From contig NZ_FODY01000028.1 in assembly GCF_900110485.1 (NCBI RefSeq), positions 1 through 64,000 of the forward strand: 64,000 nt of DNA, read 5' to 3'. Within the stretch, counting starts at the first letter, position 1, and each line of letters starts with the position of its first letter. Shown here in pieces: positions 1 through 56,052 of the stretch. The notes beneath the pieces were generated by a model that had not been told where the DNA came from, made no database searches, and saw nothing but the letters and a program-made list of their open reading frames with translations. Origin of the DNA: Propionispora vibrioides. Its GTDB lineage: Bacteria; Bacillota; Negativicutes; Propionisporales; Propionisporaceae. A program made the translations under genes and the position numbers.

Positions 1-346
1 AAACATGCACACGGAGCTAGGAACCTTGATCAAACAGATAAATGCCAAGCTGGTTGGGCACTTTCGCTACTATGGGGTAACCGACAACAGCAATGGAATC
101 CATACCTTTGGATACTGCGTACGGCGTAAATTGTTTGAAATACTCAATCGCAGAAGCCAAAAGAAGAGCTTGACGTGGGAAGGATTTGCAAAACTAACAG
201 ATAGATTCCCGCTAGCAAAAGCGAGAATCTATGTGAATATCTATGGCTAAACGTAAGTAAATGCTGCTATGAAGAGCCGGATGCCTTAATAGGGCAAGTC
301 CGGTTCCGTGAGGGGGGCTGGAATGTGAGTTCCGCCTCTACTCGAC
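1..346 (+). mobile_element. Group II intron, 3' end (5' part outside window)
   Basis: The end of an intron-encoded maturase reading frame is followed by a typical group II RNA 3' end. Domain V is a hairpin whose arms GAGCCGGA (274-281) and TCCGGTTC (299-306) pair. Domain VI follows as a GGAA/TTCC hairpin at about 320-334, and the sequence then runs into CTACTCGAC near 338-346, a usual group II 3' boundary. The exact splice point is an estimate. The intron lies between genes, and the 5' part and 5' exon cannot be seen. Confidence 0.85.
2..250 (+). CDS. ltrA: Group II intron reverse transcriptase/maturase, C-terminal fragment
   Basis: About 82 C-terminal residues are visible and the frame stays open to the window edge, so the gene starts outside. 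The sequence (GHFRYYGV near the start, then a basic helix and RIYVNIYG at the end) matches the X/thumb and C-terminal part of LtrA-like maturases. These bind the intron RNA, help it splice, and prime reverse transcription during retrohoming. The stop lies just before intron domain V, the normal arrangement for intron-encoded proteins. Whether the full protein is intact cannot be judged here. Confidence 0.85.
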   Translation, partial: NMHTELGTLIKQINAKLVGHFRYYGVTDNSNGIHTFGYCVRRKLFEILNRRSQKKSLTWEGFAKLTDRFPLAKARIYVNIYG

Positions 347-9861: not shown

Positions 9862-9917
9862 AAGCTTTTAGCGCTCGGTATACGTCTTTTAAGAAACCTC
9901 TGCTTTTCCCGAACTGC

Positions 9918-9952
9918 CGCCAGGACGAGCAGTGTGAATACATCCGTAGTTC
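9918..9952 (+). repeat. Possible degenerate end of the palindromic intergenic repeat
   Basis: The segment reading GAGCAGTGTGAATACATCCGTAG resembles the right end of the copy at 31945-32025 (GTGCGGCGTGAATACATCAGGTAG in part). No matching left end is evident, so this may be a decayed fragment. Confidence 0.35.
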
Positions 9953-14321: not shown

Positions 14322-14477
14322 GAGAATCACTGATCTATGCGTGTCGTATGTTCTGACGGAGTTTTTCTGTCTGGCTATGTCACCAAACCTTGAAAAAGCT
14401 CCGCTAGCTTTCCGGTTTGCTACTTGCCAGATGAAGAAGCTCGTTACGTCGACAGGCTCATTAAATCGGTGATTCCT
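14322..14477 (-). repeat. Palindromic intergenic repeat, copy C (inverted)
   Basis: About 156 bases bounded by GAATCACTGAT (14324-14334) and ATCGGTGATTC (14465-14475). The right end, read in reverse complement (CACCGATTTAATGAGCCTGTCG), matches the left end of copies A and B. It lies wholly in the leader of the downstream gene and stops just before its ribosome site. Confidence 0.7.
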
Positions 14478-30811: not shown

Positions 30812-31034
30812 AAAAACGGTAAAGGGACTTATCAAAAGATAAGTCCCTTACTGGTCCCAGGATGCCGCCACCTGGTATGTTCAAACCTGCCGCTAGCAGG
30901 TGGGCTTCATAAGATATGGTTTTGCCCTCCACTCTGTTGGTGGCCCGGCAGCCGCATACCATCTAAATCCCTAATTAATGAAGTAGGTTGAACATAGCAA
31001 AAGTTCGCGAGCATCACAGGAATATGATTTATTT
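30812..31034 (-). ncRNA. ssrS: Candidate 6S RNA
   Basis: A free-standing transcript on the minus strand is suggested by a promoter (TTGCTT-N17-TATTAT) at 31069-31041 and a terminator hairpin (30849-30822, AAGGGACTTATC with GATAAGTCCCTT) whose T-rich tail exists only in this direction. The body folds as one long rod: closing helix 30876-30888 with 30985-30996 (TATGTTCAA with TTGAACATA), then CTTCAT/ATGAAG and ATGGT/ACCAT separated by unequal bubbles, and an apical TGCC-CCAC/GTGG-GGCA hairpin. Length near 220 nt and rod shape fit 6S RNA, which binds RNA polymerase. Identity is inferred from shape only. Confidence 0.5.
30822..30849 (-). terminator. Terminator of the rod-shaped RNA
   Basis: Twelve perfect base pairs with an AAAA loop (30834-30837). 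On the minus strand it is followed by TTTACCGTTTTT. On the plus strand no T run follows, so it may only weakly end the dehydrogenase transcript. Confidence 0.7.
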
Positions 31035-31944: not shown

Positions 31945-32025
31945 CTAGGGAACCGCTGATTTAATGAGCCAGCCGGAAAAAGATCCGTCAGGATGTGCGG
32001 CGTGAATACATCAGGTAGTTCCTAG
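31945..32025 (+). repeat. Palindromic intergenic repeat, copy D (internal deletion)
   Basis: About 81 bases between CTAGGGAAC and GTTCCTAG. The left part (CCGCTGATTTAATGAGCC) matches the left ends of copies A and B, and the right part (GTGCGGCGTGAATACATCAG) matches their right ends, with the middle half missing. Confidence 0.6.
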
Positions 32026-35552: not shown

Positions 35553-36593
35553 ATGAGAAAACGTATGGTAGGGTTAGGTTTGGCGGTTTGTATGCTGGCC
35601 GCGCTGGTAGCCGGCTGTGGCTCAGGCGGCCAGAAGACGGAGAAAGAGGCACCCAAAGCGGCGTCACAGGAGATTGTCGCCTATGGCGTCATTGATCCGC
35701 AGATTTCGGCGCAGCAGATTATTGCCGACAAAAAGGGCTTTTTTGCCGCCGAGGGAGTCAAGGTGACCAATAAGCTGATCCAGTCGGGCGGCGATATTTC
35801 ACCGTTGATCTCGGGCGGTACGGCCCAGGTATCCTTTGAAACACCGTACACCGACATTGCCGTGGCAGCCAATAATGTAGGCGTTAAAATTGTGGCACCC
35901 ATGGCCGATATCGGCAATACCCAGGCAGTGGTGGCCGGCAAGAATGTAACCATTCAGAAGGCGAAAGATTTGGAAGGCAAGAAAATCGGTATCGCGGCCG
36001 GGGCCGGCGTATTGATCGCCATCCGCAATATGTGTGCCGAGCTGGGAGTCGACATCAACAAAATCCAGTTTGTCATCTTAAGCCCCAGTGACCAGATTGC
36101 GGCCCTGGACCGCGGCGACATTGATCTGATGGCCTGTTGGGAACCGTGGGTCAGCAATGCCGTTAAAGCCGGCGGCAAGCTGCTGTTCAGCGGCCTCAAC
36201 TCCTATCTGCCGGACAAGCAGGGACCGGTGTCATGGCTGAGCTTTTACACGACCATGCAGGTGACCGACCAGTTCCTGAAAGAGCATCCTCAGGAGATTC
36301 AGGCAATGCTGAGAGCGTTGAAAAAGGCCACCGATTTCATTCATGAGCATCCCGATGAAGCCGCCGAAATCATTGCCAAGGAGATCAACCTTGACAAAGA
36401 ACAGGTAAAAAAGATTATGGGACAAAACAAATATTCCATGCAGTTTGACGATCATTTCAAAAAGTCCAGCGACGAAATGGCCTCGTTTATGAAAGAAATG
36501 AAAAATATCCCCAGCAAGCCGGAGTTCAAGCAATATGCCGATCCGACGCTGTTAAAGCAGGCCTTGCCGGAATTGGTGACGGTAGCAGAATAA
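35553..36593 (+). CDS. ABC substrate-binding lipoprotein 1 (NMT1/THI5-like)
   Basis: 346 residues. The lipoprotein signal ends in LVAGC with Cys22 as the lipid-attachment site. The mature protein has the SsuA/NMT1 bilobal pattern (DPQISAQQIIADKKGFFAAEGVKV, DLEGKKIGIAAGAGVLIAIRNM, LMACWEPWVSNAVKAGGKLLFSG). It would capture the substrate in the periplasm for the permease. It is followed within 18 bases by a paralogue with the same architecture. Lobes and the WEPW segment are intact in both, so this is a functional duplication rather than a decayed copy. Confidence 0.92.
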   Translation: MRKRMVGLGLAVCMLAALVAGCGSGGQKTEKEAPKAASQEIVAYGVIDPQISAQQIIADKKGFFAAEGVKVTNKLIQSGGDISPLISGGTAQVSFETPYTDIAVAANNVGVKIVAPMADIGNTQAVVAGKNVTIQKAKDLEGKKIGIAAGAGVLIAIRNMCAELGVDINKIQFVILSPSDQIAALDRGDIDLMACWEPWVSNAVKAGGKLLFSGLNSYLPDKQGPVSWLSFYTTMQVTDQFLKEHPQEIQAMLRALKKATDFIHEHPDEAAEIIAKEINLDKEQVKKIMGQNKYSMQFDDHFKKSSDEMASFMKEMKNIPSKPEFKQYADPTLLKQALPELVTVAE

Positions 36594-36611: not shown

Positions 36612-37658
36612 ATGAGAATGAAAAAGGGATTGTTGCGTAGCTGCGCCGCCATGATGGTCATTGTAGCCGGCTTAGCAGCGGCCGGTTGCGGCGGCGGACA
36701 AAAGACTGCCGCGCCGGCTGCCGATTCAGGGGCAGCCAAGGAAATCATCGCCTATGGTGAACTGGACCCGCAGGTTTCGGGACAGCAGATTATTGCCGAG
36801 GAAATGGGCTATTTTAAGGAAGAGGGCTTAAATATTAAAAATAAACTGATGACCGGGCCTGATGAGAATGCAGCTCTGGTTGCCAGCGGTGAAGCGGGCA
36901 TTTGCTTCGGTTCGATCTATAACAACATTGCCGTGTCCGCCAACGGCGTAAAGGTCAAGGTGTTGGCACCGCTGGCCAATGCCGCCGGCACGCAGAGCGT
37001 GGTGGGGCGCAAGAATTTGCAGCTTACCAGCGCTAAGGATTTAGAAGGCAAGAAAATCGGCATGACTAACGGCGCCGGTGTATTAATCGCCATCCGCAAT
37101 ATGGCGGCGGCTACCGGCACCGATATCAACAAAATTCAGTTTGTCAATCTGCCGGTTTCCGATCAACTGGCGGCGCTGGAAAAAGGCGATATTGATGCTA
37201 TGGCGGCCTGGGAACCGTGGGTTGGCAAGGCTGTCGACATGGGTGGCAAACTGCTGTTCAGCGGTACGACTTCCAACTTACCGGACAAACAGGGCGATGT
37301 TCACTGGATTGACTTTTATATGACGGTCCAGGTTACCGATGATTTTTACCAAAAGAATCCGGAAGTGGCTGAAAAGCTGCTGAAAGCGTTGCATAAAGCC
37401 ACTGACTATATCAATCAGCATCCGAAAGAGGCTGCCGCCATCATCGCTAAACGGATTAACATCAAGGAAGATGAGTGCTTCCGCATTATGCAGAAAAACG
37501 TGTATGCCATGAACTATGATCAGCAGTTTGTCGACGGGGCCAACAAAATGGCCGAATTCATGCTGGATATGAAGAATATCAAGGCGGTGCCGGAGGCTAA
37601 AACCTATCTGGACCCCGGCGTATTAAAGAAAGTTTTCCCCGAAGCAGTGAAAATCTAA
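36612..37658 (+). CDS. ABC substrate-binding lipoprotein 2, paralogue of the preceding gene
   Basis: 348 residues with lipobox AAAGC (Cys26). Nearly every core segment of the first binding protein recurs (ELDPQVSGQQIIAEEMGYFKEEGL, KDLEGKKIGMTNGAGVLIAIRNM, AAWEPWVGKAVDMGGKLLFSGTTSNLPDKQGDVHW), but the ligand-facing loops differ (MTGPDENAALVASGEAGICFGSIYNN versus LIQSGGDISPLISGGTAQVSFETPYTD). The pair therefore probably widens the substrate range of one importer. Copy B of the palindromic repeat begins 16 bases after the stop. Confidence 0.92.
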   Translation: MRMKKGLLRSCAAMMVIVAGLAAAGCGGGQKTAAPAADSGAAKEIIAYGELDPQVSGQQIIAEEMGYFKEEGLNIKNKLMTGPDENAALVASGEAGICFGSIYNNIAVSANGVKVKVLAPLANAAGTQSVVGRKNLQLTSAKDLEGKKIGMTNGAGVLIAIRNMAAATGTDINKIQFVNLPVSDQLAALEKGDIDAMAAWEPWVGKAVDMGGKLLFSGTTSNLPDKQGDVHWIDFYMTVQVTDDFYQKNPEVAEKLLKALHKATDYINQHPKEAAAIIAKRINIKEDECFRIMQKNVYAMNYDQQFVDGANKMAEFMLDMKNIKAVPEAKTYLDPGVLKKVFPEAVKI

Positions 37659-37673: not shown

Positions 37674-37836
37674 GGTAAGCACTGATTAAATGAACCTGTC
37701 GGGCTGGCGAGAGATTTTTTCGTCTGGTAAGGAAGTAAACCGCAGAAATAGCGGCCCCTATTGCAAGATTTTGCTGACGCAGCCAGGCGGAAAAAGCTCC
37801 ATCAGAACGCGCAGTATGAATTAATCAGTGGTTGCC
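37674..37836 (+). repeat. Palindromic intergenic repeat, copy B
   Basis: 163 bases with inverted ends GGTAAGCACTGATTAA (37674-37689) and TTAATCAGTGGTTGCC (37821-37836), 14 of 16 matching. The interior (GCGGCCCCTATTGCAAG, TGCTGACGCAGCCAGGCGG) is nearly identical to copy A. It fills the gap between the convergent ABC and pucR genes. Confidence 0.85.
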
Positions 37837-39479: not shown

Positions 39480-39539
39480 GGTAACCACTGATTAATTCAC
39501 GCTGCGCGTTCCGGCAGGTTCATCTAACCAGCGGTTACC
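39480..39539 (-). repeat. Palindromic intergenic repeat, copy E (minimal form)
   Basis: 60 bases with inverted ends GGTAACCACTGATT (39480-39493) and AACCAGCGGTTACC (39526-39539). The inside (TTCACGCTGCGCGTTCCGGC) equals the right end of copy A in reverse complement, joined directly to the opposite end. It lies in the pucR-allB promoter region. Confidence 0.75.
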
Positions 39540-52430: not shown

Positions 52431-52489
52431 GCGGTTGCCGGTATAACGGGACAACAGAACAGATAACCAGGAACAAGCCTTAGAGCGTG

Positions 52490-52636
52490 TCTTCAAACGA
52501 TCCCAAACGGCCTCGGACGGTGTTCTTTGTTCCACATTTTGTTAATGCTTTTTGAAATAGGAGCCGCTGTTTCTGTAAAGTGTTGACTCGTCTGGCGCAA
52601 AAATCACTCGTCATAGACATTCCGTTAGTTTGAAGA
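52490..52636. repeat. Candidate small inverted-repeat element (IS/MITE remnant)
   Basis: 147 bases flanked by perfect 9-base inverted ends TCTTCAAAC (52490-52498) and GTTTGAAGA (52628-52636). The left outer flank GAGCGTG resembles ends of IS5-group elements. No transposase remains. It sits in the gap between the small ABA-type protein and the EAL gene. Confidence 0.45.
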
Positions 52637-52637
52637 T

Positions 52638-52671
52638 AAGCCCTAGCCGGATATGGCAGGGCTTGTTTTTT
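52638..52671 (+). terminator. Intrinsic terminator
   Basis: AAGCCCT (52638-52644) pairs with AGGGCTT (52658-52664), then GTTTTTTTA. It ends the ybaK transcript. Confidence 0.8.
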
Positions 52672-55531: not shown

Positions 55532-55598
55532 AAAACACGTTTAGCGGTGATAAGGCATATTGACAAATGTGCCTTATCACCGCTAAACGTGTTTTTTA
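55532..55598 (+). terminator. Very long perfect terminator of the EAL gene
   Basis: A 26-base-pair perfect stem (55532-55557 with 55570-55595) with a 12-base loop and a trailing T run. Confidence 0.92.
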
Positions 55599-55883: not shown

Positions 55884-56052
55884 CTAGGTAAGCACTGATT
55901 AAATGAACCTGTCGGGCTGCCAAGAGATTTTTCCGTCTGGGAAGGAAGTAAAACCGCAGGAATAGCGGCCCCTATTGCAAGGTTTTGCTGACGCAGCCAG
56001 GCGGAAAAATCTCCGGCAGGACGCGCAGCGTGAATAATCAGTGCTTACTTAG
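55884..56052 (+). repeat. Palindromic intergenic repeat, copy A (most complete)
   Basis: 169 bases with perfect 14-base inverted ends GTAAGCACTGATTA (55888-55901) and TAATCAGTGCTTAC (56035-56048), extending to 17 of 18 outward. Internal complementary parts (TTTTTCCGTCTGG and CCAGGCGGAAAAA) would extend the structure into one long imperfect hairpin. It lies in the leader of the secretion operon. Confidence 0.88.

Follow-up and report, generated by a model that had tools for sequence, protein, structure and literature searches.

A ~160-bp repeat of Propionispora vibrioides as a probable IS5-type MITE with a conserved hairpin core

Copies of the repeat in the window and its genome

The window, by which we mean the whole 64,000-nucleotide stretch that was analysed, is contig C28 in the 4.43-Mb, 58-contig genome of Propionispora vibrioides (G000). 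Among its features are a match to a group II intron domain (RF00029) at 272-346 (+), a 6S RNA (RF00013) at 30850-31025 (-), two adjacent genes of similar sequence at 35553-36593 and 36612-37658, the second encoding an NMT1/THI5-like substrate-binding protein, and a nearly perfect 30-base inverted repeat at 55532-55595, 3′ of an EAL-domain gene, that is probably a terminator. Between the genes lie copies of a palindromic repeat of two kinds: type 1 has the ends of the copy at 55888-56048 (copy A), and type 2 carries the same core between other ends.

55884..55887, no strand: left target tetranucleotide CTAG beside copy A (the family duplicates YTAR)
55888..56048, +: copy A, complete type-1 element of 161 bp (alignment, fold, covariance model)
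55888..55901, +: left terminal inverted repeat of copy A, GTAAGCACTGATTA
55954..55982, +: apical part of the copy A hairpin, CCGCAGGAATAGCGGCCCCTATTGCAAGG, with a near-identical stretch in G000 type-2 elements
56035..56048, -: right terminal inverted repeat of copy A, the same 14 bases as the left
56049..56052, no strand: right target tetranucleotide TTAG of copy A, one base off CTAG
37675..37835, +: complete type-1 copy flanked by convergent genes (consensus alignment, covariance model)
14323..14476, -: diverged type-1 copy, with divergent genes for a PadR-family regulator and an FMN oxidoreductase on either side
31949..32022, +: internally deleted type-1 copy, like the 80-81 bp form of four other loci
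39481..39538, -: 58-bp type-1 copy, chiefly the two ends
52484..52642, -: diverged type-2 copy, with the shared core, ends of GGCGTGTCTTCAAACT type and TTAG and CTAG flanks
9917..9951, +: possible right-end remnant, indistinguishable from chance (consensus match)

Copy A has the perfect 14-base inverted ends that an initial annotation of this DNA had described, and it folds end to end as was claimed there, at -92.8 kcal/mol against -50.1 for dinucleotide shuffles (z = -10.2); its other strand reaches -76.7 kcal/mol (z = -7.7). The further copies placed near 37674, 14322 (inverted), 31945 and 39480 were all recovered by consensus alignment and covariance model, the window copies scoring at E = 4e-26 to 0.02, and the list overlooked the related type-2 copy at 52484-52642. 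That copy lies upstream of a gene for an EAL/GGDEF/PAS protein. At 9917-9951, 27 of 35 consensus positions are matched ungapped for a score of 21, which cannot be separated from chance because random 200-base stretches score up to about 29. The window copies are intergenic, as had been stated, and the leader or promoter position given for those at 14322, 39480 and 55884 agrees with the gene context: the copies at 14323, 31949 and 39481 sit between divergent genes, and the one at 55888 precedes a gene for an ABC transporter.

Genome-wide, the end pattern GTAASCRCTGATTAA with at most one mismatch has 94 matches in G000, against 1 for a reversed control pattern, and pairing these by position gives at least 53 loci with type-1 ends, where the initial annotation had set fewer than about ten copies as its mark for a cis-regulatory RNA. 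Both ends are present at 41 of the 53, and 31 of those 41 measure 161 or 162 bp; a BLAST search with copy A found at least 40 distinct places (the best 40 of 178 candidates were scored). The terminal inverted repeats are strongly conserved across copies, and no transposase gene lies inside the element. The internal-deletion forms proposed from the window exist across the genome as elements of 47, 57, 58, 80-81 and 119 bp, the common length being 161-162 bp; short forms with both ends preserved occur, and one internal deletion is common to four loci of 80-81 bp, which the 31949 copy resembles.

No full copy falls within a long open frame (0 of 42, with gene calls made by a simple longest-frame heuristic). 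Open frames upstream of L003, L005, L006, L018, L183 and other loci often end exactly at the element, and since the TAG or TAA of a YTAR target then supplies the stop codon of the upstream frame, insertion there may be harmless. The genes that adjoin the copies are unrelated to one another, so a cis-regulatory leader of a single gene family is not favoured. Orientation relative to neighbouring genes shows no significant bias, the upstream gene being co-oriented in 24 of 41 cases. Rfam has no family above its gathering score in the element, and a permissive threshold gave only weak, chance-level matches of miRNA type.

Target duplication, empty sites and IS5-family partners

Aligned copies terminate in CTAG followed by GTAASCRCTGATTAA, and because CTAG is itself a palindrome, duplication of the target was tested on asymmetric flanks. 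Identical non-palindromic 4-mers, among them TTAG, CTAA, CTTG and CAAG, flank 19 of the 146 type-1 elements from all genomes, where flank shuffling gives a mean of 1.6 and, in 2000 shuffles, a largest count of 7; an inverted flank match occurs in only 1 of the 146. The dominant target 4-mers are CTAG, TTAA, TTAG and CTAA, that is, YTAR, with mostly CTAG in G000. The search for target duplications that had been proposed for this repeat finds a 4-bp duplication of YTAR, in agreement with IS5, which is reported to duplicate Py-T-A-Pu, most often CTAG (PMC5493358).

Comparison with the sister genome G002, which shares 91-97% identity with G000 at most compared loci, shows what an insertion looks like before and after. 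At L010, G000 has TTAG-element-TTAG where G002 has a single TTAG, a clean empty site, and less exact empty sites were found in G002 at L007, L174 and the type-2 element L326; six loci are occupied in both genomes, judged by the span of the alignment (L008, L011, L169, L170, L171 and L175). Four of ten comparable insertions are thus absent from G002, and the family must have moved after the two genomes split. A third genome, G001, is too diverged for such a comparison, with only L175 suggestive. The recent activity suggested by the initial annotation is upheld by this movement, and not by the nested deletion series from which it had been argued, which on its own does not establish it.

Transposases that could move such an element were sought among PF01609 matches in the host's class, each checked for matching ends. 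The genome G146 has a 1263-bp insertion sequence (IS) with ends GGAAACACTGATTAA and GGAAATACTGATTAA and TTAA on both sides, and G171, G174 and others have an IS of ~1.24 kb with ends GGAAACACTGATAAATTC and GGAATCACTGATAAATAG. In G171, G174 and the rest of their genus the short elements carry the CTGATAAA variant, as does the ~1.24-kb IS, and the short elements of G146 have the end variant CTGATTAA. The 333- and 332-residue transposases belong to the IS5 family (NF033581, 318 and 294 bits, cut-off 140) and also match PF01609 and PF05598. A partner transposase occurs in 9 of 200 class genomes, and the short element in 6 of these 9 against 42 of the 191 others (Fisher p = 0.007, uncorrected for relatedness). 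The partner transposase is absent from G000, G001 and G002, and neither G000 nor G002 has an IS with type-1 ends, although MITEs commonly, if not necessarily, have an autonomous element with their ends in their own genome, so mobilisation in trans is argued from other genera; the transposase with matching ends that the initial annotation had looked forward to exists there (G146, G171, G174) and not in G000 itself. The covariance model R1 detects no core as part of the IS; what it matches next to or within IS copies are elements that inserted there separately, and in G162 a short element has inserted into a decayed IS copy.

Other candidates for the partner were set aside. The PF01609 transposases of G000 belong to three intact copies of one IS, whose ends differ from those of the element, and to fragments; in metagenome-assembled genomes (MAGs) of clostridia no PF01609 transposase with matching ends was found, and long-spaced pairs of ends there, considered as autonomous elements, proved to be neighbouring short elements or chance.

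Taken with the unrelated neighbours of at least 53 loci, the target duplication, the empty sites and the IS5-family elements that have the same ends elsewhere bear out the earlier MITE-like reading and support the view that the repeat is a ~160-bp mobile element, an IS5-type MITE with no gene of its own. Inverted ends of ~15-16 bp together with insertion at YTAR and a 4-bp duplication would mark it as a non-autonomous transposon of IS5 type, and its build, its target, the empty site and the ends that it has in common with the partner IS suggest that an IS5-family transposase moves it in trans; the source IS would since have been lost from G000. The REP-like reading offered beside the MITE-like one, in which a palindrome of REP/BIME type is moved by a RAYT transposase, fares badly. 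Such elements are likewise palindromic, intergenic and multi-copy, and a strand-specific fold would suit a single-strand substrate, but single units of ~160 bp with inverted ends, 4-bp duplications and an empty site do not fit, and it is a DDE-type IS that has the matching ends, so we give this explanation almost no credence.

A conserved hairpin core and its possible role

The element is not restricted to one genus, as had been supposed. A covariance model built from 15 lineages was run on 200 genomes from 82 genera of the host's class, which by the look of its genomes appears to be Negativicutes, and matched in 48 genomes and 24 genera; among the class matches listed, nearly all are about 156-163 bp long and run end to end. 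A scan of contigs with the end pattern found the element in many clostridial MAGs as well, of Oscillospiraceae and other groups, at 160-173 bp in most, so that its length is near-constant, 156-173 bp, over the class and the clostridial MAGs. Collections of plasmids and phages gave no match to the element, and in open-licence papers there was none with these end sequences and nothing on such MITEs in Negativicutes or Ruminococcaceae. Perfect ends number 135 in G040 and 184 in G051. In the MAG JAFRPB (G041), many contigs have an element end ~125-140 bases from the contig end, and the element, which accounts for the repeated 160-bp hairpins of genomes that carry it, probably explains some assembly breaks as well. 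In another MAG, JAISVU, L036 and L048 are ~110-bp elements with similar ends and a seemingly unrelated interior, one of them flanked by TATA on both sides.

One core is found between two kinds of ends. Type-2 elements, present in several class genomes and in G000, where 17 type-2 ends were counted, have the core of type 1 between ends of the form GGYGTGTCTNNNAACT, flanked by YTAR. The type-1 consensus and the majority of G000 type-2 copies share an identical apical stretch, GCAGGAATAGCGGCCCCTATTTCAA, of which G020 and G069 have a version of their own in their type-2 copies. A hybrid at L173:6528-6691 (C3:241427-241590 of G000) joins a type-1 left half to a type-2 right half. The 5′ arm is longer by ~18 nt (ACCCTAAAGGGCACG..) in some type-2 elements of G000 (L320, L321, L325, L327 and L328), which measure 176-179 bp.

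The interior is a conserved hairpin module of ~130 nt with conserved asymmetric internal loops, and across the 15 lineages two-sided changes that preserve pairing occur at 32 of its 54 consensus pairs. It is also a hairpin of one strand. In each of the 15 type-1 lineages the plus strand gives the more stable fold, with a margin of 14-40 kcal/mol. These lineages were oriented by similarity to the G000 consensus (the groups G040 and G041 by their first member, itself placed in this way), except that L085 was flipped later to its better-folding strand; in four type-2 elements the difference is 18-31 kcal/mol, of which only the size counts and not the sign, since these were oriented by the better-folding strand. 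Composition accounts for 2-14 kcal/mol, as judged from 60 dinucleotide shuffles each, and the observed difference was matched by a single shuffle, 1 of 60 for G040. Among single copies the plus strand is the better in 97 of 99, and L085, one of the two that deviate, was then re-oriented. A further 28 class loci include two (L225 and L226, apparently one insertion) with a slight advantage for the opposite strand. The bias means that G-U pairs have been kept on one strand, where the other has A-C mismatches, and such retention is the mark of a fold that is used as RNA or as one strand of DNA.

The level at which this fold is kept can be approached through changes within G000. All counts are small and were read against a structure derived from the same alignment. 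Changes confined to single copies comprise 11 G-U against 10 A-C changes and 22 other breaks at paired positions, whereas shared changes show 16 G-U against 8 A-C columns, and all changes together 76 against 31 cells. Since the singleton changes look neutral, the fold seems to be kept in the spreading lineage and not in each insertion, copies apparently decaying freely once inserted.

These observations bear on what the core is for. In the usual model the mobility of a MITE needs its ends only, and the repeat could accordingly be an ordinary derivative of an IS5-family element whose interior is a passive palindrome without function; the existence of short forms that have lost interior sequence and kept their ends, and the decay of individual copies without strand bias, are what this would predict. 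If the 80-81 bp forms moved as units, the long hairpin would not be strictly needed for transposition. A plain transposon passenger would have no need of a one-strand fold, however, and the fold therefore points past an ordinary MITE, as do compensatory changes at 32 pairs across genera, a near-constant length over the class and the clostridial MAGs, a strand bias above composition in every lineage tested and the sharing of one core by two end types; we regard a passive interior as somewhat unlikely.

Alternatively, the core might be an amplified regulatory RNA that benefits the host as a leader, terminator or mRNA stabiliser. The copies are intergenic, fold stably on one strand and, for several in the window, lie in 5′ regions, and other MITEs are reported to affect mRNA stability (PMC2229807, PMC10969869). 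Unrelated neighbours, unbiased orientation and neutral decay make a host-regulatory role less likely, and with no Rfam family and an insertion polymorphism between the sister species G000 and G002 also against it, we consider this explanation improbable.

Overall, the repeat is probably an IS5-type MITE mobilised in trans, in which a folded single strand of the core would serve the element's own spread and not an adjacent host gene. That strand would most likely be a transcript, less likely single-stranded DNA. The latter reading, in which one strand, exposed for example at a replication fork, folds so as to join both ends for the transposase, has in its favour that the strand-specific fold spans the whole element with its ends and calls for no transcript evidence; we know of no requirement of this kind for IS5-family DDE transposases, however, and the conserved asymmetric internal loops fit RNA equally, so it seems to us decidedly unlikely. 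Going beyond the probable reading, we put forward more tentatively that the core may be a mobile RNA or single-stranded DNA module that borrows the ends of at least two YTAR-targeting IS in Clostridia-type bacteria, its fold being needed for spread and selected in the lineage and not by the host.

Comparison with known systems

MITEs are usually seen as debris of IS elements with an unimportant interior, and a one-strand hairpin kept over dozens of genera between two end types suggests that a non-coding passenger of a DDE transposon can have a function in its own spread. With the IS5-family MITEs the present element shares ends of ~15-16 bp, insertion at YTAR with CTAG favoured, a 4-bp duplication and the lack of a transposase gene; it differs in its class-wide one-strand hairpin core, its two end types and an interior that does not resemble that of an IS. 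REP/BIME elements are palindromes of 20-40 bp, single or in alternating arrays, and thus unlike these single units of ~160 bp.

Among other bacterial repeats, ERIC is alike in being a widespread intergenic sequence of 100-200 bp with a long imperfect hairpin, and orientation-dependent effects have been reported for it, but it has 127 bp, 7-bp ends and TA at its termini (PMC2229807), whereas the element described here has 161-162 bp, a 4-bp YTAR duplication, IS5-type ends and other host taxa. The Correia/NEMIS repeats of Neisseria, of ~155 bp with internally deleted forms of ~107 bp, have hairpin transcripts that were proposed as substrates of RNase III (PMC2229807); our element is likewise a hairpin of ~160 bp with internally deleted forms, and differs from their 24-bp ends and TA termini in its 4-bp duplication and unrelated sequence. 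The BOX, RUP and SPRITE repeats of the pneumococcus, for some of which terminator-like or riboswitch-like RNA motifs have been suggested (PMC10969869), are short and interspersed in the same way, with different ends and sequences and a confinement to other taxa. In the IStrons a group I intron is joined to an IS, a structured RNA module in alliance with the DNA transposon that makes it mobile (PMC4227781); the present element, with no intron and no transposase gene, resembles them in joining a structured module, here a putative RNA, to a DNA transposon.
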